From the NCBI GenBank assembly GCA_017428285.1, contig JAFRRE010000149.1, positions 1 to 17,765 of the forward strand: a DNA stretch of 17,765 nt. Direction: 5' to 3'. Under the pieces are notes generated by a model. That model searched no databases. It saw only the letters and a program-made list of their open reading frames with translations, and had not been told where the DNA came from. This stretch comes from Bacteroidales bacterium. Lineage in GTDB: Bacteria; Bacteroidota; Bacteroidia; Bacteroidales; F082. A program made the position numbers and the translations under genes. Shown here one piece after another: positions 1 to 15,521 of the stretch; position 1 is the first letter of the stretch; each line of letters starts with the position of its first letter.

Positions 1-3000
1 GACAAACACGCCTTCCATGGCTTCGATGCTACCGTTTGTGACAGGAAGGTAAACGCCATACGCATCCATGGTGTAGAAGTTGGTGGTGATACCGGAATTG
101 CTAGTGGTGAGGTAGGCAGTCTCAGCGAAGGGGTTGCCCAGGAGGTTCCAACCTGGCAAATCAATGGTAAAGCCATCGCCTTCCTCGTAATAGGCCAACG
201 GGATGGTTTCCTCGCCAGAGTGGCGGCCTGTGCCGGTGAAGACCAAGGTGACATCATTCAGGTTGGCGTAGAGGTAGCCCTTGCCAGATTCAAGGAGGCT
301 GAAGGCGCCAGGATTGTTATTTGCGTCTATATAGTTGACCCATTCCAAATCCCTATTGTGATCGAAATAATAGAGGTCGTAGCTACCGATACTGGAAACC
401 ATGTTGGCAGTAGCATCGCCTTCGATGGTAACAGCCGTGGGAGCAATGTCGCCAATAGGCGAAGCGATGAGGTAGAAATTAGAAGCTCCTTCTTCAGCAT
501 TACTCCAACCAGCAATGGGCTTGAAGTATTGCTCAATCACAGGTTCAGCAACAACCACTGTGGAAGAAGTGGCTTCGTATGGGAGGAGTTCAACATCGTA
601 GCTTAAGTTGCCTTCGTGAGGTACGGCAGTGAAGGTGTACTCGCCAGTTTCAGCCAACACGGTGAATTGTGCCGAGAAGACAACACCTTCGGTAGAAACA
701 CTGTTGTTGTTGTCACTGATTATCATAGCCAATTGAACCGCATTGGCAAGTGTACCAGGCATCATGAATGCACCATTCTGCTGTGCTTTTGTGGCAACAG
801 GACCATAAACTTGGCTATTAGCAACGTATTCAAATGCGGTATTGTCATAGGTGATATCCAAGATAAGGCCAGTGAAACCGTTCCAAGTTCCACTGGTAGG
901 AGCAGTCAGCACGCCTTCCACGGTGATGAAATCACCAGGAGCTGCATTGGCCGGGGCGTTCACGGTGAACTGGACTGCGTTCGGGTTGGAAGTCACGGTC
1001 ACGTTGATTTCGGCAGTGATATCGGGATTCGAGACGGAGGTGATGGTGATGGTGGTCGTACCCACGCTGACGCCGGTCACAACACCCTCTGCGTCGACGG
1101 TGGCAATGGCCGTGTTGGCAGAAGTGAAGGTGACAGACAGGTCGGTGGCATTGGCAGGTAACACTGTATACTCGATGGTGGCAGTCTCGCCAGTGATTAT
1201 CGTAATGTCGTAAGCAACGACGTTGATTTCCTCGACATCAATGTTCGTCACGGTCACGGTTAAGGTACCGGTGACACCCGAGCCGTCGGTGGCGGCGATG
1301 GTGATGGTAGTGGTGCCAGCGGCCACGCCGGTCACTACGCCATTTTCATTGACGGTGGCGACACTCTCGTCAGCCGAGCTGAAGGTGACGGCCGTATTGG
1401 TGGCATCTTCAGGAAGCACGGTGAAGACGATGGAGTAAGTAGCACCTACATTCATCTCGATTTCGGTGGGATTCACCGTGATGCTTTCGACGGGAACAGC
1501 AGCAATTTCAGGCGTGGTGAAGAAGGAACTGTAACTCCAATCGGTATTATTACCTTCGCCGTCGCAGTCGACACCCTGCACTTGCCATTCGTAAATACTT
1601 TCAGATTCAAGTTGGGTAAAGCCGAGGCTTAGCGTGTTGCCATTGGCGGTGGCAGTCATCCAATCGGTACCTTCGGTGACAGGGTCATCAGAGGAAATGA
1701 CAAAATTGTCAAGATAGAGTCTATACATATCATTAGAGAGATATGCAATGACAAAACTCGTGGCACCCACGGGAACTTCGCTTGTGTATTGCTCCCAATC
1801 CGTGTTTGAAACTGTTACTGCATCTTCCGCGACCACATCATCTCCAACAATGTAAAGCAGTTCAAAGGTTTCAGGATAAGTAGCACTTGCGACTTTATAA
1901 TCGAATGTCAAAGTCTCGCTGTGTTGTGTCGGTCTTGGGAAATCAGGAGAAAACAGGTATTGAGGAGGGTTGGTATTATAAGAGAACACCCAACAAACGT
2001 CAGTTTGAGTATCATCTGTATAGTAGAAACTACTATTATCATCCGCATATAATGACCCCCAGTCGCCTATATTATCAGGAGTCAGGGGCTCGTTGATGTA
2101 GTATCCATCAAAAGCAGGTATCCTGTATTGCACATTGTAGCTGTCATGATAACCCGTCCAGCTGAGTTCGGCAGAACTGCTTGTGAGCTCCACGGTGAGG
2201 TCAGTAGGAATAAGATCACAATAGGAAGGTGTGCTGAAAATGTTGCTGCTCCAGTCGCTCTCACCAAGACCACTGCAAACACCTTGCACCTGAACCTCGT
2301 AAGAGGTTCCCTCGGTCAAACCTTCAATCGTGTACGGAGAAGTAACGCCAGTGATAGTTTGATTCCAACTGCCACTTAATACAGAGATGTCATCGATACA
2401 GAAAATGAAGGCATCGTTAGAAACACATTGGATGGCAAGCTGAATAGTCTGGCCATTGTATGCCGACAAATCATAGCTGTATTGCGTCCAAGTTGTAGTA
2501 GGAGTAATCGATGTAGAGGCACTTCCTGCCAAATAGGATGATAATGAACCATTAGCACCGTAAACACCTACTCTAAAAGCTTCGGGATAGGAGTCAGTGT
2601 ATTGCTTAGCCCAGAATGAAAACACATCTCCAGTTTCGATAGTGAGTGAAGGCAGTATGAAAAAGTCATTGTTAGGAGGCGTTGTGGCGGCAAAGCATGC
2701 ACCAAAGGCATTGCCCCCATGTGCGTTCAAGCTACTAACCACATCGTTCTGGAAAGCGATAAAGGCGCCAGTGTATTGTTGATTTGTGAATTCAAGATCT
2801 TGAATACCATAGGTGCCTGAGCCGTCGCCGTCATACGTGGTGCAGGGCGAGAATTCATCAACCGCAAAAGGTGTAGCCGATTCGAAGTCATAGGTAAATT
2901 TCGAGGATAATTCTCTGTAGCGAAGGTTGTAACTGTCGCAATCGCCTTCCCAACTGACCGTGGCAGCAGAAGGAGTAGCACTAACGGTCACGCTGGTAGG

Positions 3001-3663
3001 TTCGTCGCAACTAGGAATCTCATATGTGACTTGAATATTAGACAAATACAAGGCTCTAGTATTAGGACTACTCGAGCCTTTCAACGTCACCACAATATTT
3101 CCTGAGGTATAATTCAAATTGGTAGCAGAGTAAGTAGCAGAGGATGTTGTCAAGTTACCGCTTTTTACAGTGTTTCCATTAACTGAAATGCTATAAGAAG
3201 AAGAAGAAGCATTTTGTGTTACATAACCTGTAATAGAAACACCCGTCACTATAACATTTTGACCAAAACTTGAGATAGGTGTCTGAATTGTCCAATTTGA
3301 AGCTTGTGGATTATTTTTTGAACCAACCTGGATTCTCGTAGCAGTAGCACCAATGTAAGTCGAGCTAGAATATGTCCAGTCGATGTTGTTGATTGTCTTA
3401 GTACCACCATTTGTACTCCATCCAGAGGTTGGAATACTGGAGAAAGAATACGTATACGTGGCCCTGTCGCCTCTATCGCCTCTGTCGTTTGAGAGGGTCA
3501 TCAACGAAGCCACTTTATAAGGCTTCGCATCAGAAGCGCTCTTCATTTTGAGTTCAGTAGAAACCTTTTTGGTCTTCTTTGTGAGCGCCTTTGTTTGTGC
3601 ATTCATTGCCAGCGGCACGCATAGGGCCACCAGCAACATGATGAGTAATGATTTTCTTTTCAT
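1..3663 (-). CDS. Secreted cohesin-bearing multidomain adhesin (3' end outside window)
   Basis: I read this frame codon by codon: it is open from the ATG at 3661-3663 to base 1 (1221 codons, no stop), so the C-terminus is missing. Residues 1-23 are a Sec signal peptide ending in AMNAQ. A beta-rich module follows (about 68-215). A short FN3-like strand set (219-255) leads into a cleaved-adhesin/choice-of-anchor-J-like domain (about 256-433), and a second such pair covers 482-661. Two Big_2 (BID_2) Ig-like domains follow (723-806, 808-892), with the typical SVATV..NGVVTGVAAGTTTITI pattern. Residues 893-1040 look like a type I cohesin: an APGDFITVEG strand, then ITYDNTAFEYV, then EGVVFSAQFTV. 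The remaining 180 residues resemble the pre-C-terminal module of T9SS cargo (GWNLLGNPFA). Cleaved-adhesin domains are known from gingipains and HagA. The likely role is a surface or secreted scaffold and adhesin for the two dockerin proteases upstream. Cohesin identity is by motif and strand order only. Confidence 0.88.
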   Translation of the reverse strand, partial: MKRKSLLIMLLVALCVPLAMNAQTKALTKKTKKVSTELKMKSASDAKPYKVASLMTLSNDRGDRGDRATYTYSFSSIPTSGWSTNGGTKTINNIDWTYSSSTYIGATATRIQVGSKNNPQASNWTIQTPISSFGQNVIVTGVSITGYVTQNASSSSYSISVNGNTVKSGNLTTSSATYSATNLNYTSGNIVVTLKGSSSPNTRALYLSNIQVTYEIPSCDEPTSVTVSATPSAATVSWEGDCDSYNLRYRELSSKFTYDFESATPFAVDEFSPCTTYDGDGSGTYGIQDLEFTNQQYTGAFIAFQNDVVSSLNAHGGNAFGACFAATTPPNNDFFILPSLTIETGDVFSFWAKQYTDSYPEAFRVGVYGANGSLSSYLAGSASTSITPTTTWTQYSYDLSAYNGQTIQLAIQCVSNDAFIFCIDDISVLSGSWNQTITGVTSPYTIEGLTEGTSYEVQVQGVCSGLGESDWSSNIFSTPSYCDLIPTDLTVELTSSSAELSWTGYHDSYNVQYRIPAFDGYYINEPLTPDNIGDWGSLYADDNSSFYYTDDTQTDVCWVFSYNTNPPQYLFSPDFPRPTQHSETLTFDYKVASATYPETFELLYIVGDDVVAEDAVTVSNTDWEQYTSEVPVGATSFVIAYLSNDMYRLYLDNFVISSDDPVTEGTDWMTATANGNTLSLGFTQLESESIYEWQVQGVDCDGEGNNTDWSYSSFFTTPEIAAVPVESITVNPTEIEMNVGATYSIVFTVLPEDATNTAVTFSSADESVATVNENGVVTGVAAGTTTITIAATDGSGVTGTLTVTVTNIDVEEINVVAYDITIITGETATIEYTVLPANATDLSVTFTSANTAIATVDAEGVVTGVSVGTTTITITSVSNPDITAEINVTVTSNPNAVQFTVNAPANAAPGDFITVEGVLTAPTSGTWNGFTGLILDITYDNTAFEYVANSQVYGPVATKAQQNGAFMMPGTLANAVQLAMIISDNNNSVSTEGVVFSAQFTVLAETGEYTFTAVPHEGNLSYDVELLPYEATSSTVVVAEPVIEQYFKPIAGWSNAEEGASNFYLIASPIGDIAPTAVTIEGDATANMVSSIGSYDLYYFDHNRDLEWVNYIDANNNPGAFSLLESGKGYLYANLNDVTLVFTGTGRHSGEETIPLAYYEEGDGFTIDLPGWNLLGNPFAETAYLTTSNSGITTNFYTMDAYGVYLPVTNGSIEAMEGVFV

Positions 3664-3719
3664 TGTAATTGTTTTGTTGTTAGTACTTTGATTTATTTTT
3701 GTTTGTTCTTTTCTTATGT

Positions 3720-3782
3720 GGCTATCGGCCGTCAGCTATCAGCTATCAGCTTGGTTGAACCGGGCTGATTGCTGATGGCTGA
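3720..3782. repeat. Hairpin repeat, copy A
   Basis: The left arm (3720-3750) contains repeated CAGCTATCAGC units. The right arm (3771-3782) has GCTGATGGCTGA, which pairs with one unit allowing a G-T pair. It is almost identical on its left side to copy B at 3954 and related to copy C at 7352. It lies in the predicted 5' leader of the cohesin-bearing gene. Confidence 0.65.
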
Positions 3783-3877
3783 AATCGAAGATTCAACGTA
3801 GTTAAAGCTGACTGCTATATTATAATCTCGCGTCTTTTATGTAATCTATTTATGTTCATTTATTTAATTTCGGGCTG

Positions 3878-3906
3878 CAAAAATAGTGAAAATTAATGAC
3901 ATACAA
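3878..3906 (-). promoter_or_regulatory. Candidate Bacteroidetes-type promoter for the cohesin-bearing gene
   Basis: Read on the minus strand, 3885-3878 is TATTTTTG, an exact match to the TAnnTTTG -7 consensus. A TTG at 3906-3904 lies 18 bases upstream, near the expected -33 position (consensus TTTG with about 19 bases between). The downstream ATG is at 3663, giving a leader of about 210 nt. Confidence 0.5.
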
Positions 3907-3953
3907 GTAACAGTTTAAAATTAATTTCATTTTTTTTGACTTGGGACTTGTGT

Positions 3954-4030
3954 GGCTATCAGCCGTCAGCTATCAGCTATCAGCTTGGTTGCACTGGGCT
4001 GAAAGCAGACTGCTGATGGCTGATGGCTAT
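3954..4030. repeat. Hairpin repeat, copy B
   Basis: The left arm (3954-3984) carries AGC-ATCAGC units in tandem. The right arm (4012-4030) is GCTGATGGCTGATGGCTAT and pairs with two units, with G-T or single mismatches. It sits about 60 bases past the stop of the Rgp-like protease and could act as a 3' hairpin for it. Confidence 0.65.
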
Positions 4031-4585
4031 ACATTGTCTTGCGTCATTTATATGAACTAAATTCGCACATTCACTTAGCTATTAATTCTACTAGTTCATG
4101 ATTGCTCTCAACAGCAGTGTGACATCTATCACGTTGACACTTCCGTCACCATTATAATCGGCATTCAGCAGGGCTTGGCCCGTGAGTTGGGTCCCTCCCA
4201 TACAGTGACGCAGAAGGAGCGTGACATCAATCACGTTGAGGCTTCCATTTCCGTCAACGTCGCCAGGGATGCCGTCGGGCAAGGTGGTGAAGCTCACCTG
4301 CTCGCCGTAGGCGGTGCCGACGCTGTTGGTGGCGTAGGCGCGCACGTAGTAGGTGGTGTTGGCAGCGAGGCCGGTCATCGCGCTGGTGAAACTGCCCGTG
4401 CCTGTGCCGTCGGTGGTATGGCTACCGCTGACCGTCGGGTTCTGCAAAGTGCTCCAGCAGATGCCGCGTGCCGTGACGGTGGCGCCGCCGTCAGCCGTGA
4501 CATTACCACCGCCCGTGGCCGTGGTCTTGTCCACATCGCTGATGGCTGTGGTGGTCACGGTAGGTGCCACTGCCGGGTTGGCAAC
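3954..4585 (-). repeat. Duplicated C-terminal cassette with 3' flank, copy 1
   Basis: This segment encodes the FN3-like module, the dockerin and the stop of the Rgp-like gene, plus the downstream flank with hairpin B. It is nearly the same as 7352-7965. The two encoded segments of about 157 residues differ at only 10 positions by my count, and the similarity continues past the stop codons. The upstream catalytic regions are far more diverged. Confidence 0.85.
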
Positions 4586-6625
4586 AGTGATCTGTTGGAT
4601 GTCGGTCACCTTGTTATAACCGAACACGCAAAGGGTCAAGGTTTGGCCTGCAGTAAGCGTACCGTTGATGGTGATGGTGGCGGTGTTGTTGCTCACCGTG
4701 GCTTTGCCGAGGATGTTGTGGTCGGCGTCGGTGATGGTGGCAAGAGCGCCATTGCCGTTGGTCACATTGACGGTGTAGGTGGTAGCGCTGGCCATAATTG
4801 TTCCATCGTGGGTGACGGTCATGGCGGTCGGGGTCTTGGTGCGGAGCATCAGGCTCGGGTCGCCGTAGAGAATCCATGATTGGTAGGTGCCAACAGCAGA
4901 TTGCGTTGAAGTGCTGTAATGGTCAAACATACCCATAATACCGTTGATGGCTACTCCACCCCAAGTGTGCTTGATATTGCTACTGTTGCTTTCGACCAAA
5001 AGATCAATGCATTCATCTTGTCCCCACATCGGCGGATCCCAAGGCTGTTCGATGTATGACATCAGGGTACCAATGGCACCAGTAGGATTGTTATTGTTCG
5101 TGGCATTCATCCAAGCCTCAGCGAAGCAGTCGCTACTGTGGTCGTATTTACCTACCAAACAGGCCACCGAAAAGATGAAAGGCAGCTTGTTTTCGTTGGT
5201 CAAGGCATTGACATGGGAAACAGCATAATAGACATATCCAGAGCTGTTTGCACCCCAAGCGGTTTCCTGACCGTGGTTGCAGTAGTTGATAATGCCAACG
5301 CCGCTATTGATGTCAGAAGAAATGGTTGCTGCTGTTGCACTATATCCTGTTAGGTTGGCATAACGTTGATACACGGTGGAATAACCATAGTTCAACAGGT
5401 CGGTACGGATATTGTTCATGTGGACATAGTCGTCCTCATTGTTGTGTGCTGACGGGGATTGACCTTCTTTTCTTGCGATACCCTCACCTAATTGAAGCCA
5501 AGTGGCTGAGGTAGTAAGGTCACGTTCGTAAGTGATGGCACGCTGGCACTGTGTGGTCACGCGGGCTGCGGTGCTGGCGGAGAAACGACCGATGAAAACA
5601 TCGTTGTAAACATCGCTACCGACAATTTGTCCGTAGGCGTTGTCGCCCAAACCACTGTAGGAAGAGCCACCGCCTGAGTAGGAATAACCCGGAATCTGGG
5701 CCACATCGCCGACGAGCAGCACATGGGTCAGGTTATTGTTGGCGTTGTATTGGTTCTTGATATAGGTCTGGATGGCCGAATAGCTGGAACCTGCGGTGCT
5801 GGTGCCCACAATGGTGGTGTTCACGCCACGGGTCTTCTTCCAGTTGATGAAGTCGGTCATGTAGCTGATGAAGTTGTCGTAGCAAATGATGAGCAGGTCG
5901 CCTTCCTCATCCACGGGCGTGTATTTTGACATGCCAGCTTCGTAGTTGATGAAGTGACGCTGATAGACGCTCTTGAAATCGGGATCCAGCTTCACGACAT
6001 TGCTGCGGCGGGATTCCATCACATTGGTGCCATTGTCATCGAGTTTGTACATCTCCACGGTCATGTCGTAATACACACGGAGGGTCTTGGTGACGGGGTT
6101 GTAGGCAAAGGGATAGACCACCATGTTCTGGCCACGGAAGTCGCGGATGATGTAGGGCTCATACATGCCCACGTTGTTAGTCGGGAAGAAGGCATCCTGG
6201 CTATAGCATTCGCCGTAGGTGTAAGGCACCGTGGCAGGGTCGATGGAACGCGGGAAGTCGCCCTTCGATGGAGCCACTTCGATGCCTTCGAAGTCCTGAT
6301 ACTTTGCGTTAACGACACGGATGTCCATGCGGGCACGGTCGCCGATCATTACGGGAATACCCGTCATGGGCACGTTGGGTTCGCCTGCCTCAGCCGTGCT
6401 GACGGCCTTGGGCATGGTGACAACATAAGCCTCACCACGAGGCGTGTTCACGGCAGTCGTATAGAATCCCGGAACCTGGAGTCTGACTTGGATCTGGTCT
6501 TCCGAAGAAGAGACCAGCACCTTCTTGAAGGACTCAGGTGTGCTACTGGTAATACTCGTCCATTCTTGCGCCATGGCTGTCAGGGCAAGGCAAAGAATGA
6601 AGAATGAAAGGAGTGTTTTTTTCAT
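4091..6625 (-). CDS. Arg-gingipain-like C25 cysteine protease with C-terminal dockerin
   Basis: This 844-residue protein is a secreted endopeptidase of the gingipain R type. It has a signal peptide (1-19, ending MAQ), a propeptide to about 234, and a mature start YTPVDEEGD matching RgpB YTPVEEKEN. The catalytic domain spans 235-598. Catalytic His451 lies in NYCNHGQETAWG, Cys489 in FIFSVACLVGK, and Glu387 matches RgpB Glu152. Asp399 (PSAHNNEDD) aligns with RgpB Asp163, the S1 residue for Arg; the WDPPMWGQDE segment keeps the S1 Trp and Met. A C25_C Ig-like domain (599-676), an FN3-like module (688-786) and a type I dockerin (789-844, loops DVDGNGSLNVID and DYNGDGSVNVID) follow. No T9SS tail is present. 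The start follows the signal peptide, 54 bases after the toxin gene, so co-transcription is possible. Residue matches are to P. gingivalis sequences recalled from memory. Confidence 0.95.
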   Translation of the reverse strand: MKKTLLSFFILCLALTAMAQEWTSITSSTPESFKKVLVSSSEDQIQVRLQVPGFYTTAVNTPRGEAYVVTMPKAVSTAEAGEPNVPMTGIPVMIGDRARMDIRVVNAKYQDFEGIEVAPSKGDFPRSIDPATVPYTYGECYSQDAFFPTNNVGMYEPYIIRDFRGQNMVVYPFAYNPVTKTLRVYYDMTVEMYKLDDNGTNVMESRRSNVVKLDPDFKSVYQRHFINYEAGMSKYTPVDEEGDLLIICYDNFISYMTDFINWKKTRGVNTTIVGTSTAGSSYSAIQTYIKNQYNANNNLTHVLLVGDVAQIPGYSYSGGGSSYSGLGDNAYGQIVGSDVYNDVFIGRFSASTAARVTTQCQRAITYERDLTTSATWLQLGEGIARKEGQSPSAHNNEDDYVHMNNIRTDLLNYGYSTVYQRYANLTGYSATAATISSDINSGVGIINYCNHGQETAWGANSSGYVYYAVSHVNALTNENKLPFIFSVACLVGKYDHSSDCFAEAWMNATNNNNPTGAIGTLMSYIEQPWDPPMWGQDECIDLLVESNSSNIKHTWGGVAINGIMGMFDHYSTSTQSAVGTYQSWILYGDPSLMLRTKTPTAMTVTHDGTIMASATTYTVNVTNGNGALATITDADHNILGKATVSNNTATITINGTLTAGQTLTLCVFGYNKVTDIQQITVANPAVAPTVTTTAISDVDKTTATGGGNVTADGGATVTARGICWSTLQNPTVSGSHTTDGTGTGSFTSAMTGLAANTTYYVRAYATNSVGTAYGEQVSFTTLPDGIPGDVDGNGSLNVIDVTLLLRHCMGGTQLTGQALLNADYNGDGSVNVIDVTLLLRAIMN

Positions 6626-6641
6626 TTGGTAAAGGTATTAA

Positions 6642-6677
6642 AATTCAAGATTTAAAGATTTAAGATTCAAGATTCGG
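6642..6677. repeat. 36-bp direct repeat flanking the toxin-antitoxin module, copy 1
   Basis: This copy is identical base for base to 7318-7353. It is built of loose AAGATT(T/C) units. It lies between the toxin stop (6680) and the start of the Rgp-like protease (6625), so the two copies bracket the toxin-antitoxin pair. Confidence 0.9.
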
Positions 6678-6679
6678 TT

Positions 6680-7015
6680 TTAGGAATTCAAAGAGTCTAT
6701 GGTTTGTTGTGCTTGTTTTTTGGGTTCGCGTCGGGTGTCCCAGAAATCAGCTATATGTATGGTGTCATCTTCTACGTAGTAAACAATCTTATTCAAGCGG
6801 TTCACCACAATGCTTCTGAAGCAGTCAGGAAAGTCGGCCAACAATGGTTCAACAGATCCTAGGTAAGGGTTGCTTTGCAGTAGTAATTCGACACGATTCA
6901 CTTCGTCTCGGAAGTTTTCTTTCACCGTAAGGCTAAAGTTCTTCCGAATGTAGGTCGCAGTCTCACGCAAGGCTTCCCAAGCCTGTTTGTGCCAGATCAC
7001 ATTCATCTTCATCAT
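6680..7015 (-). CDS. RelE/ParE-superfamily toxin
   Basis: A 111-residue protein of the usual RelE/ParE size. It shows the family pattern: an N-terminal strand (NVIWHKQAWEAL) and two helices, then PYLGSVEPLL, FRSIVVNRLNKIVYYV and a C-terminal IHIADFWDTRREP strand. In such modules the toxin inhibits gyrase or cuts ribosome-bound mRNA; which one applies here cannot be told. The start overlaps the antitoxin stop in an ATGA arrangement (7012-7015), which implies translational coupling. Two further in-frame ATGs follow at once (MMKM), so the exact start is uncertain by up to three codons. Confidence 0.88.
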   Translation of the reverse strand: MMKMNVIWHKQAWEALRETATYIRKNFSLTVKENFRDEVNRVELLLQSNPYLGSVEPLLADFPDCFRSIVVNRLNKIVYYVEDDTIHIADFWDTRREPKKQAQQTIDSLNS

Positions 7016-7284
7016 ACAGATTCGGCAAACTCAACAGGGGTAAAACCAAGCTCCTCATCCAACATTTTCATCACTTCATCATGCGTGTAGTAATTGCCTT
7101 CAGCGAAGTCACGCTTCGATTGGGCAATCCTTTCGTGCAGCTCTTCAATCGTGTAAGGCACCAGGCTCTCGGCTTCTTCCACATCGGCGTGCTCCACGAG
7201 ATGCGCCGCCAGCCAACGTTGGTTGCTTGGTGTGAGTGCACCGTAGAGATATTCCAACAGGCTTGTCAAGGTTGCTTCGCTCAT
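7012..7284 (-). CDS. Antitoxin of the RelE/ParE module (addiction-module component type)
   Basis: A 90-residue acidic protein directly upstream of, and overlapping by 4 bases, the RelE/ParE toxin. The segment YTIEELHERIAQSKRDFAEG followed by YYTHDEVMKMLDEEL resembles the C-terminal toxin-binding region of small Bacteroidetes antitoxins paired with RelE/ParE toxins. It would neutralise the toxin and probably repress the operon. No clear TAnnTTTG promoter was found upstream (7285-7468), so the module may be transcribed by read-through from the Kgp-like gene or from an unrecognised promoter. The N-terminal half (TLTSLLEYLYGALTPSNQRW) is not assigned to a DNA-binding fold by eye. Confidence 0.82.
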   Translation of the reverse strand: MSEATLTSLLEYLYGALTPSNQRWLAAHLVEHADVEEAESLVPYTIEELHERIAQSKRDFAEGNYYTHDEVMKMLDEELGFTPVEFAESV

Positions 7285-7317
7285 CGTTTTGCTCTTTTGT
7301 TTTGTTAATTGATTATT

Positions 7318-7353
7318 AATTCAAGATTTAAAGATTTAAGATTCAAGATTCGG
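7318..7353. repeat. 36-bp direct repeat flanking the toxin-antitoxin module, copy 2
   Basis: Identical to 6642-6677. It sits 33 bases upstream of the antitoxin start and its last two bases run into hairpin repeat copy C. Confidence 0.9.
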
Positions 7354-7408
7354 CTGTCAGCCGTCAGCTATCAGCTTGGTGAGGCCAAAGCTGATAGCTG
7401 TTGGCTTT
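7352..7408. repeat. Hairpin repeat, copy C
   Basis: CAGCTATCAGCTT (7365-7377) and AAGCTGATAGCTG (7388-7400) form a perfect 13-bp stem with a 10-nt loop. The outer flanks pair partly. It lies about 60 bases past the stop of the Kgp-like protease, the same position that copy B has behind the Rgp-like protease. Confidence 0.75.
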
Positions 7409-7965
7409 ACATCATCTCGCGTCATTTATATAAACTAAATCTGCACATTCACTTAGCTATTAATTCTATTAGTTCATGATTGCTCTCAATAGCAGTGTGA
7501 CATCTATCACGTTGACACTACCGTCACCATTGTAATCGGCATTCAGCAGGGCCTGACCCGTGAGTTGGTTTCCTCCCATACAATGACGCAGAAGGAGCGT
7601 GACATCAATCACATTGAGGCTTCCGTTTCCGTCCACATCTCCAGGGATGCCGTCGGGCAAAGTGGTGAAGCTCACTTGCTCGCCGTAGGCAGTGCCGGCG
7701 CTGTTGGTGGCGTAGGCGCGCACGTAGTAGGTGGTGTTGGCGGTAAGGCCGGTCATGCTGCTGGTGAAGCTGCCCGTGCCCGTGCCGTCGGTGGTATGGC
7801 TGCCATCAACGGTGGGGTTCTGCGAAGTGCTCCAGCAGATGCCACGTGCCGTAACGGTGGCGCCGCCGTCAGCGGTGACGTTGCCGCCGCCGGTGGCGGT
7901 GTTCTTGTCGATGTTGCTGATAGCTGTGGTGGTCAAGGTAGGTGCCGTTGCAGGAGTGACAACCG
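7352..7965 (-). repeat. Duplicated C-terminal cassette with 3' flank, copy 2
   Basis: Partner of 3954-4585. It covers the FN3-like module, the dockerin, the stop codon and the 3' flank of the Kgp-like gene. The stretch around both stop codons (TTAGCTATTAATTCTA, C/T, TAGTTCATGATTGC) is almost unchanged between copies. Confidence 0.85.
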
Positions 7966-13384: not shown

Positions 13385-15521
13385 ATTCCACAATCGTCAT
13401 TTCATCAATGAGGTGCCCTGCACCGGCGAATTTGTCGATAATGAAGAGCACATAGCGGATATCGACGCTGATGTTGCGACAGATGTCGGGGTCGTAGATG
13501 AGGTCGCTCATCGTGCCTTCCCAGCAGCGGTCGAAGTTGAGGCCAAGGAGTTGTCCCTCAGCGTTCAAGATGGGGCTGCCTGAGTTGCCGCCCGTGGTGT
13601 GTACGCTGGCGGTGAAGGCCACATGCATGGTGCCGTCCTTGTCGGCATAGCGGCCGTAATCCTTATTAATATACAGCTGCTTCAGGCGCGGCTCCACCAC
13701 ATAGTCGTAGATGTCGGGGTTCTCCTTCTGCATGATGCCTTCGAGTGTGGTGAAGTGGCGGTAGGTCTTGCCGTCCTGCGGCTTGAAGCCTTCGATCTTG
13801 CCGTAGGTGACGCGCAAGGTGAAGTTGGCGTCGGGGAAGAGGCGCTTGTCGGGCTGCATGTCCATCTGGCCTTTCATGTAGATGCGACGCAGGCGGTCGT
13901 TGTCCTTGGTGATGCTGGAGATGTGGGCGTAGACATTGTCGCGATAGAAGCCAATCAGACTCTGGTAGACCTTCATCGCGGGGTCGTTGGCCAACTTCTT
14001 GGCCTTGCTGGGCTTGAAGTCGTCCAACAGCTCGTTCACCTTTTCCTCATCAACAAACATCGACTTGGCAAAGAGCTTGTCGACATATCCGTCAACGTCC
14101 TTGATGTCGTTGAGGAAGGCGGGTCGGAAGTCGGCGGGCTGGGCTTTCAGGTACTCGTTGAACACCATGACGGCTACCTCGCGGTCGATGGGTTCATAAT
14201 AGTCCTTGAAGAAGCTGGCAGAGGTGGCTTTCAGCTGATGCAACATGCGGTCGATGTCTTCCTGCGGAGTGTCCTTGGTCACCTCGGAGAGCTTGGCAAA
14301 ACGACCTGCGAAAGTGACCAACTCGATGCGCAGTCCTGCTTCGGCCATATAGGTGTAGGCCAGCTGGTAAGGCTCCAAATCCTTATAGTTTTTCTTGAAG
14401 TCTTTCAGTAGGTCGATATACATATAGCGGTTGCGTGCGCCCAAGGCCCATTCCTGGAAGTTCTTCTCGAAAGCCTGTTTCTTCTCCACGCCGTGGAAGT
14501 GATTAATGCCTTCGGTCACACCCATCCATTTCTTCCAGCCATTGCCGAGACCGGCGTGCTTGGAGGCATACTGGATGCGCACCTTGGGGTCTTGCTCCTG
14601 GTATTTGTTGTAGATGTCGAGCACCTTGCCGCGCAGGTCGACCATGATGGGGTCGATGAGGTTGGCCTCTTGGTCGACGGCCACGGCAGGCAGGTATTCG
14701 TTGGTGCGGGCGGGATAGCCGAACACGAAGGCGAAGTCGCCTTCATCGGCACCTTTCAGCGAGATGTCGAGATGCTTGGCGGGCTTGTAAGGCACATTGT
14801 CCTTGTCGTACACGGCGGGGCGGCCGTCCTTGTCGGCATAAACGCGGAAGATGCTGAAGTCGCCCGTGTGGCGGGGCCAGACCCAGTTGTCGGTGTCACC
14901 ACCAAACTTGCCGATGTTGCTCGGCGGGCAGCCCACGAGGCGCACGTCGGTGTAGACCTCGTTGAGGAGCAGGTAGTACTCATTGCCCAAGAAGAACGGC
15001 TTGATGCTGACTTTATACTTCGTCTCCTTCTCGACTTGGGCGATGAGTTTCTTCATATTCTCATCGACCTTGGCTTGACGGTCTTCTTCTTTCATGTCAG
15101 GCGTGACGCCGAAGAGTATCTTCTCGGTCACGTCGCGCATCTCGCGGAGGAAGATGACGCTGAGGCCAGGGCAGGGCAGTTCCTCTCCCCTGTTCATGGC
15201 CCAGAAGCCGTTGGTGAGGTAGTCGTGCTCCACCGAGCTGTGTTTCTGGATGTAGTCGAAACCGCAGTGGTGGTTGGTGAGCAGCAGGCCTTGGTCGCTG
15301 ACAATCTCGCCCGTGCAGCCACCGCCAAAGAGCACGATAGCGTCCTTCAGGCTACTGTGATTAATGGAATAAATGTCATCAGCGGTGATTTTCATGCCCA
15401 TCTCCTGCATTTCTTTCTCGTTGTATTGCAGCAGCATGGGAATCCACATGCCTTCGCCGGCCTTGGCAATGCCGATGGAGAGCGTGAGGATGAAGGTGAT
15501 TAATAATGTGATGCGTTTCAT
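13383..15521 (-). CDS. dpp11: S46 dipeptidyl-peptidase, DPP11-like (Asp/Glu-specific)
   Basis: A 712-residue S46 serine peptidase that releases dipeptides from the N-terminus of oligopeptides, normally in the periplasm. It has a signal peptide (1-21, ending AKA) and the mature start GEGMWIPMLL typical of the family. The catalytic residues are His85 (LLTNHHCGF), Asp221 (WPRHTGDFSIFRVY) and Ser647 (TTGGNSGSPILNAEG). Arg665 in LNFDRCWEG lies 18 residues past the Ser, the same spacing as Arg673 and Ser655 of P. gingivalis DPP11; DPP7 has Gly there. I therefore predict preference for Asp or Glu at P1 (residue numbers of the homologues are from memory). Its length is standard. It lies downstream of a secreted unknown protein on the same strand, with a large hairpin between them. 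It fits with the C25 endoproteases as the next step of protein breakdown. Confidence 0.93.
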   Translation of the reverse strand: MKRITLLITFILTLSIGIAKAGEGMWIPMLLQYNEKEMQEMGMKITADDIYSINHSSLKDAIVLFGGGCTGEIVSDQGLLLTNHHCGFDYIQKHSSVEHDYLTNGFWAMNRGEELPCPGLSVIFLREMRDVTEKILFGVTPDMKEEDRQAKVDENMKKLIAQVEKETKYKVSIKPFFLGNEYYLLLNEVYTDVRLVGCPPSNIGKFGGDTDNWVWPRHTGDFSIFRVYADKDGRPAVYDKDNVPYKPAKHLDISLKGADEGDFAFVFGYPARTNEYLPAVAVDQEANLIDPIMVDLRGKVLDIYNKYQEQDPKVRIQYASKHAGLGNGWKKWMGVTEGINHFHGVEKKQAFEKNFQEWALGARNRYMYIDLLKDFKKNYKDLEPYQLAYTYMAEAGLRIELVTFAGRFAKLSEVTKDTPQEDIDRMLHQLKATSASFFKDYYEPIDREVAVMVFNEYLKAQPADFRPAFLNDIKDVDGYVDKLFAKSMFVDEEKVNELLDDFKPSKAKKLANDPAMKVYQSLIGFYRDNVYAHISSITKDNDRLRRIYMKGQMDMQPDKRLFPDANFTLRVTYGKIEGFKPQDGKTYRHFTTLEGIMQKENPDIYDYVVEPRLKQLYINKDYGRYADKDGTMHVAFTASVHTTGGNSGSPILNAEGQLLGLNFDRCWEGTMSDLIYDPDICRNISVDIRYVLFIIDKFAGAGHLIDEMTIVE

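Follow-up and report, generated by a model that had tools for sequence, protein, structure and literature searches.

In Porphyromonas gingivalis, the RgpA/Kgp complex unites an Arg-type and a Lys-type C25 protease with cleaved-adhesin-fold domains and a T9SS tail, and its parts are joined by the cleavage of one polypeptide. Clostridial cellulosomes use type I cohesin-dockerin pairs to assemble glycoside hydrolases. In Candidatus Stygibacter (Cloacimonadota), a dockerin-bearing C25 peptidase has been inferred in silico together with a scaffoldin that has cohesins and, at its end, a T9SS-type CTD (PMC8542988). According to the portion of that paper drawn on here, the scaffoldin has 3,755 residues with tandem cohesins and CBM2/CBM3, and is accompanied by glycoside hydrolases and an S8/S53 peptidase (PMC8542988). 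Finally, the ‘planctosome’ of Nemodlikiaceae (Planctomycetes) is a hypothesised cohesin-dockerin complex for protein breakdown, which includes M14 carboxypeptidases (PMC6461901). Its described parts are a lamin tail domain anchor, an adaptor protein and an M12B-like peptidase; neither a T9SS tail nor a C25 peptidase is named in the excerpt of the source used here.

Here, we analyse a 17,765-nucleotide stretch of DNA from a Bacteroidales bacterium (the window), which encodes an RgpB-like protease (A), a Kgp-like protease (B) and an adhesin. We consider it likely that the two proteases, each ending in a dockerin, plug with calcium into the adhesin’s single predicted cohesin to give a surface protease-adhesin complex. 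The likeness to RgpA/Kgp lies in the pairing of Arg-type and Lys-type C25 proteases with cleaved-adhesin-fold domains, and in a T9SS tail within the assembly. However, the catalytic and adhesin parts are here separate genes, the proteases end in dockerins and have no T9SS tail, the adhesin gene carries a cohesin-fold domain, and the parts would be joined by predicted docking. Unlike the clostridial cellulosome, this would be a system of a T9SS bacterium, with proteases instead of glycoside hydrolases and one strong cohesin per scaffold whose sequence is missed by the Pfam profile.

The first-pass annotation knew of no described gingipain system built in this way, a statement that the Stygibacter proposal overtakes (PMC8542988). 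As far as the cited part of that work goes, both systems have a C25 protease with a dockerin, a scaffold with cohesin (here one, of predicted fold) and a T9SS tail (here in four complete relative scaffolds). In contrast to Stygibacter as described there, the present system has one cohesin missed by PF00963, a scaffold of gingipain-adhesin type and a Bacteroidales host, as well as an Rgp-like and Kgp-like pair in one locus, evidence of matched variation and apparent allele swapping. With the planctosome, as the cited portion presents it (PMC6461901), it shares the idea of a cohesin-dockerin complex for protein breakdown with M14 carboxypeptidases. What is new is therefore the lineage, the Rgp/Kgp pair, the single Pfam-missed cohesin, the gingipain-adhesin scaffold and the apparent allele swapping; the C25-dockerin principle had already been proposed. 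No paper linking gingipains and dockerins in Bacteroidales was found in the literature searched (subscription journals and bioRxiv preprints lay outside its scope). If our reading is correct, the cellulosome principle enters Bacteroidales, for proteolysis with gingipain-type parts. It would also raise a testable question, namely whether T9SS can export cargo without a sorting domain via non-covalent attachment to a tailed partner. Moreover, it would offer specificity studies and enzyme display a naturally occurring collection of candidate matched cohesin-dockerin pairs that the standard cohesin profile does not see.

Gingipain-like proteases and their candidate scaffold

The features of the locus are collected in Table 1. 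On the minus strand, transcription runs from protease B through a likely antitoxin and a ParE-like toxin to protease A and then the adhesin (hereafter the scaffold). Both proteases have the same domain order: Propeptide_C25, Peptidase_C25, Peptidase_C25_C, an fn3-like linker and a terminal Dockerin_1 (Pfam). Among PDB sequences, the best match of protease A is gingipain R (1cvr, E 1.1e-96) and that of protease B is Lys-gingipain (4rbm, E 4.2e-99). The likely start codon of protease B is at 10171 (the open reading frame as listed starts at 10258), and its signal peptide, MKKLFFIAMSLILSVSAIAQ, was judged by eye, as was that of protease A. In each protein, the propeptide, C25 domain, Ig-like domain and His/Cys dyad of a gingipain catalytic unit are present, and the PDB alignments show that both proteases retain the NY-x-x-HG and VAC/GNCC motifs known from RgpB and Kgp. 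The S1-pocket residues, which we take to be Asp163 in RgpB and Thr442 and Asp516 in Kgp, align with identical residues in proteases A and B. Because the catalytic motifs are kept and these presumed pocket residues are identical, the natural guess from sequence is one Arg-type and one Lys-type protease.

Table 1. Coordinates of the protease and scaffold features in the window
Feature	Position	Strand	Evidence
Protease B: Kgp-like C25, 900 aa, dockerin at C-terminus	7469..10171	-	Pfam; PDB sequence match
Dockerin of protease B, two full calcium loops	7472..7657	-	PF00404 41.5 bits; 98.4% identity to dockerin of A
Fn3-like linker of protease B, 93 aa	7658..7936	-	Sequence; 90.3% identity to linker of A
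Protease A: RgpB-like C25, 844 aa, dockerin at C-terminus	4091..6625	-	Pfam; PDB sequence match
Dockerin of protease A, two full calcium loops	4094..4279	-	PF00404 41.6 bits; PDB dockerin 1ohz_B, E 7.1e-8
Fn3-like linker of protease A, 93 aa	4280..4558	-	Sequence
300-nt direct repeat, copy 1: dockerin of A and its 3' flank	4012..4311	.	92% identity to copy 2
300-nt direct repeat, copy 2: dockerin of B and its 3' flank	7390..7689	.	Repeat search
Adhesin/scaffold gene, 1221 aa readable, C-terminus beyond window edge	1..3663	-	
Predicted cohesin-fold domain of scaffold, residues 893-1044	532..987	-	AlphaFold2 model
Two Big_2 Ig-like domains ahead of cohesin	988..1494	-	PF02368 E 4.5e-26, two stretches
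Choice-of-anchor-J / cleaved-adhesin-fold domain, residues 248-436	2356..2922	-	NCBIfam NF038128 56 bits; Foldseek

Both terminal modules are type I dockerins, scoring above the PF00404 cut-off of 22.9 bits with both calcium loops complete, and the window dockerin sequence matches the PDB dockerins 2ccl_B and 1ohz_B. This agrees with the first-pass annotation, which had described two adjacent C25 proteases, each with a C-terminal type I dockerin and two full calcium loops. The full RgpA/Kgp architecture, with adhesin domains and a T9SS tail on the protease polypeptide itself, is absent, since both proteases end in the dockerin.

The socket was recognized by its fold. An AlphaFold2 model of scaffold residues 893-1044 (pLDDT 94) has cohesins alone as its 36 best PDB matches, and the modelled domain shows the cohesin jelly-roll. 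PF00963 gave no match to the window scaffold protein at E <= 1 and 0 matches over cut-off in four relative genomes, and neither the single domain (phmmer) nor a 20-row profile retrieved a cohesin from the PDB sequences. We class the domain as a predicted cohesin fold rather than as a member of PF00963. The cohesin-like domain proposed earlier is thus upheld as a fold: of the two signs named against it, the lack of a cohesin match and the lack of a cohesin fold, only the missing Pfam match was found. The best PDB sequence matches, CFA/I pilin fusions, were short (28-46 residues) and were discarded as unrelated; acetyltransferase and TsaE matches were discarded at E 0.7 or worse. The cleaved-adhesin domain claimed for the same gene folds like those of Kgp itself, as the top 7 Foldseek matches of the choice-of-anchor-J domain are Kgp K1-K3.

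A profile search found one strong cohesin in each of 24 of the 26 distinct scaffold proteins, so that the several cohesins of a cellulosome scaffoldin are not present. In P0018, a further partial match is weak (10.4 bits), and a second cohesin suspected in P0012 from a weak BLAST match was dropped after the profile search. The two proteins without cohesin (P0022 and P0023), together with L050:12266-16258 (by eye), are scaffold-like adhesins with a similar C-terminal region. They are possible donors or relatives of the scaffold.

Relatives of the locus and matched variation

Across 99 genomes of the genus, the cohesin profile had strong matches in four (G001, G014, G042 and G059; E 3.4e-60 or better) and weak partial matches in two more (E 0.003-0.004). 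The identical four were found among 173 genomes of the family. Samples of 393 genomes from the order and 395 from the phylum gave 1 match each, G001 both times. All four cohesin-positive genomes carry terminal dockerins on the cohesin’s contig. G001 is the closest of the compared genomes to the window (21% of sampled 31-letter words common), and the order protease B, protease A, scaffold is kept in G001, G042 and G014. A full-length scaffold homologue lies at L014:2641-6768. Protease B falls into two lineages: cores are 87% identical between the window and G001 and 90% between G042 and G014, but 46-48% between lineages. The named records of the four cohesin loci are MAGs; L050 comes from yak reticulum, and L051 and L052 bear RUG names, which we take to mean rumen.

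In G059, the cohesin scaffold is preceded by an M14 carboxypeptidase carrying CUB, PKD and dockerin domains, and this in turn by the end of another dockerin protein with, by eye, a similar dockerin. This arrangement suggests that the enzyme is exchangeable while the dockerin-cohesin arrangement persists. A dockerin-bearing M14 carboxypeptidase stands beside the scaffold gene in L052, and Rgp-like and Kgp-like C25 proteases with dockerins do so in the window; several enzyme kinds may share one scaffold.

PF00404 exceeded its cut-off in 32 of the 99 genus genomes (41 matches listed), 28 of which have no strong cohesin match and hold 33 of the dockerin matches. We inspected the 26 of these 33 that had a locus: 23 have at least 187 residues beyond the dockerin, L029 and L037 are dockerin-terminated and the position in L046 could not be assigned. 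At L022-L049 (no strong cohesin), dockerins of a second kind occur internally in large proteins, with about 190-280 further residues and, by eye, a T9SS-like end.

To compare more loci than the sequence-verified ones, proteins were assigned to one locus when their longest contigs were of equal size. As a check, the proteins of 104116 (G001:C12) and 17765 (the window) do agree; the other links are by size only, which applies to 5 of the 10 cohesin-dockerin loci (5 of the 9 C25 loci) and to 14 of the 18 A-B pairs. In the four sequence-verified C25 loci, the dockerins of A and B are 81-98% identical, whereas their cores share 27-31%. Between verified loci, the relation is reversed, with A cores 77-88% and A dockerins 49-73% identical; likewise, protease B of the window and of G001 share 86.6% in the core and 46.8% in the dockerin. 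Over 18 loci (4 verified and 14 size-linked, several being near-duplicates of one another), A-B dockerin identity averaged 92.3% within a locus (range 73-100) versus 59.6% across loci, a difference reached in 0 of 100000 permutations. Core identity over the same 18 loci (14 size-linked) was 29.4 within and 29.1 across. The A dockerin had its own B dockerin as best match in 15 of the 18 loci, ties counted, and not in the remaining 3. In P0147-P0149, the B core matches that of the window at 99.9% identity and the dockerin at only 53%. The same new dockerin occurs exactly in an A protease and a B protease in two size-linked pairs (P0041 with P0147, P0043 with P0149). Since near-identical proteases can have quite different dockerins, plug and socket resemble matched alleles that can be exchanged.

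Divergence of the cohesin runs parallel to that of the dockerin in the enlarged set. Across 9 C25 loci (5 size-linked), cohesin and dockerin identities correlate with a Mantel r of 0.82 (Spearman 0.60; 2 and 4 of 20000 permutations in two runs). Removing the near-twin 82184 left r 0.73 over 8 loci (20 and 10 of 20000 permutations), and omitting one further locus at a time gave r 0.62-0.79. With the M14 outlier G059 added (10 loci), r was 0.69 and Spearman 0.42 (3 of 20000 permutations); G014 and G059 have similar cohesins (72%) and dissimilar dockerins (45%). In the 5 sequence-verified loci taken alone, cohesin and dockerin identities are uncorrelated (r 0.07, 36 of 120 permutations). In the controls over 9 loci, r was 0.09 for cohesin versus protease A core, 0.07 for cohesin versus fn3-like linker, 0.06 for dockerin versus Big_2 domains and 0.37 for dockerin versus the region after the cohesin (781 of 20000 permutations). 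The scaffold parts flanking the cohesin were uncorrelated with the dockerin over the 8 loci without the twin (r -0.18 and -0.03); over 10 loci, dockerin versus the region after the cohesin gave r 0.33 (848 of 20000) and versus Big_2 0.22 (1141 of 20000). G001 and contig 82184 have cohesins 100%, dockerins 94% and A cores 80% identical.

The cohesin face formed by strands 8-3-6-5 is the dockerin-binding interface according to the consulted section of PMC5429695. These strands (39 columns) are more variable than the other sheet (38 columns), with a mean entropy of 1.65 versus 0.66 (Mann-Whitney p 1.5e-6). A Mantel test split by sheet did not favour the binding sheet, the other sheet correlating equally strongly, so the correlation shows at most whole domains travelling together rather than contact residues. 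We make no claim of contact-level coevolution for this reason. At the level of domains, the pattern says that cohesin and dockerin appear to travel as matched partners, and it is from this matched variation across loci that we infer their docking. The earlier suggestion that separate parts are reunited through cohesin-dockerin pairing gains from this evolutionary evidence, which points to the cohesin as the partner, with many of the loci size-linked only.

At the DNA level, the dockerin regions of the window form a 300-nt repeat of 92% identity that extends into the 3' flank, which points to gene conversion. Short intergenic repeats of 70-nt and 31-nt families (‘GTCAGCTATCAGCTATCAGCTTGG’) lie behind both dockerin genes, at 3713-4016 and 7350-7380, and are perhaps linked to the conversion tract.

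Export, assembly and rival readings

How the proteases would reach the surface depends on their C-terminal endings. We classified the best 120 of 3957 homologues of A and the best 120 of 1073 homologues of B, window proteins included. Of these 240 listed C25 proteins, 136 have a C-terminal dockerin and 25 a T9SS tail (by our own profile); 79 have neither ending and 0 have both. The 79 comprise fragments and other endings, and P0206 and P0226 among them carry PF18962 in a precomputed list. Some proteins whose B-type core has 82-86% local identity to that of the window (e.g. P0195, P0200) combine it with Flg_new_2 repeats (PF18998) and a T9SS tail on a single chain. Neither window protease matches TIGR04183 or PF18962. 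The dockerin thus occupies the place that the T9SS tail has in many related C25 proteases.

In contrast to the proteases, all 4 complete scaffolds of verified relative loci carry a T9SS type A tail (TIGR04183 over cut-off); the window scaffold gene is truncated by the window edge, ahead of any tail. SprA is present in 4 of the 4 cohesin-positive genomes, which have from 76 to at least 150 Por_Secre_tail matches (G001 at least 150). In G001, TIGR04183 exceeded its cut-off in 12 of the 15 complete other C25 proteins (last 150 residues scanned), two of which, L084 and L085, also resemble the PorU C-terminus. The other 3 have another ending, and one more protein is cut. A third gingipain-like ending, which reads ‘...PGHGYIY...’ or similar and lacks both T9SS tail and dockerin, is seen in L090, L091 and L092 of G001 and in P0116, P0188, P0192 and P0222; NCBIfam gave no match to it in the three G001 proteins.

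In the model that we favour, the dockerin of A or B would dock in a calcium-dependent manner into the one cohesin of a scaffold. Because there is a single cohesin, a scaffold could carry only one enzyme at any moment, and the cell would display a mixed population. Assembly would take place in the periplasm, and the docked protease would cross the T9SS pore by virtue of the scaffold’s T9SS tail (‘piggyback’), which would also serve surface display; alternatively, docking may occur outside the cell. T9SS cargo crosses folded and needs a folded C-terminal domain, according to the cited part of PMC9251779. Taken with tailed scaffolds and tail-less proteases, this suggests that a docked protease could leave with its scaffold. 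The scaffold’s tail is proposed as the export route because the proteases have signal peptides but no T9SS tail, while complete scaffolds have one. Thus, the adhesin probably carries the tail-less proteases out, the export route being the step that we hold with the least certainty. More tentatively, and with somewhat less than even confidence, one may picture that the T9SS tag moved from gingipains to a separate adhesin. The dockerin would then be a portable export ticket: any periplasmic enzyme with a fitting dockerin (Rgp-like, Kgp-like or M14) would leave together with the adhesin and be displayed on it. Mutually exclusive dockerin/cohesin allelic types would be swapped wholesale between strains, as a lock-and-key code that keeps each strain’s enzymes on its own scaffold.

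The same complex could also arise by docking outside the cell only, with the proteases leaving by vesicles, lysis or an unrecognised signal and the scaffold capturing them at the surface without co-export. Classical cellulosomes assemble after independent secretion, our data speak to partnership rather than to the site of assembly, and the C25 proteins with neither module (3 of the 15 in G001, 79 of the 240 listed homologues) leave room for other exits. Yet the window proteases have no export signal besides the signal peptide in Pfam and NCBIfam, and dockerin and T9SS tail never occur together among the listed homologues, as if the one had replaced the other. The folded transit of T9SS substrates, with its need for a folded C-terminal domain (PMC9251779, as cited above), also counts against this reading. 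We regard outside docking as a serious minority reading, a little less credible than the export-ticket picture.

Two other readings would remove the partnership itself, and we find both improbable. Covariation might come from block exchange of neighbouring DNA (recombination or gene conversion) with no functional matching. The dockerin repeat reaching into the 3' flank is a sign of recent gene conversion, the non-binding cohesin sheet covaries as well as the binding one, and the region after the cohesin correlates weakly over 10 loci. Against such exchange, flanking scaffold parts and the A core covary far less than the cohesin over the 9 C25 loci and the scaffold parts are uncorrelated once the twin is removed, while G001 and 82184 share cohesin and dockerin despite their diverged A cores. 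Slightly less probable still, the dockerins may serve as C-terminal caps stabilised by calcium, or as a signal for secretion or anchoring in their own right, with the cohesin-fold domain being a non-binding Ig-like adhesin module. Non-cellulosomal dockerins without known partners are reportedly widespread, and the 28 genus genomes with dockerins and no strong cohesin match, the long extensions behind 23 of their 26 inspected dockerins and the failure of PF00963 would all suit this idea. It sits poorly with a fold match specific to cohesins and with a cohesin that tracks the dockerin more than other scaffold parts do. Likewise, proteases only about 29% identical share the dockerin type of their locus, and the M14 enzyme and preceding fragment of G059 have similar dockerins by eye. 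The docked protease-adhesin complex remains the reading that we prefer.

Neighbouring genes

Between the protease genes of the window, at 6680-7284 (minus strand), lies a ParE-like toxin gene (PF05016, 29.9 bits) with a likely antitoxin reading frame upstream. This segment is bordered by a 64-nt direct repeat (6614-6677 and 7290-7353, 81% identity). In G001, G042 and G014, the protease genes are merely 22-24 bases apart. The protease block had no match among phage records. Further along the window, a full S46 peptidase (13383-15521, minus strand; PF10459, E 1.2e-228) lies near the protease locus, fitting a peptide-eating lifestyle. The plus strand encodes, at 12128-13348, a leucine-rich repeat protein of BspA type whose T9SS sorting tail matches PF18962 at 43.1 bits.
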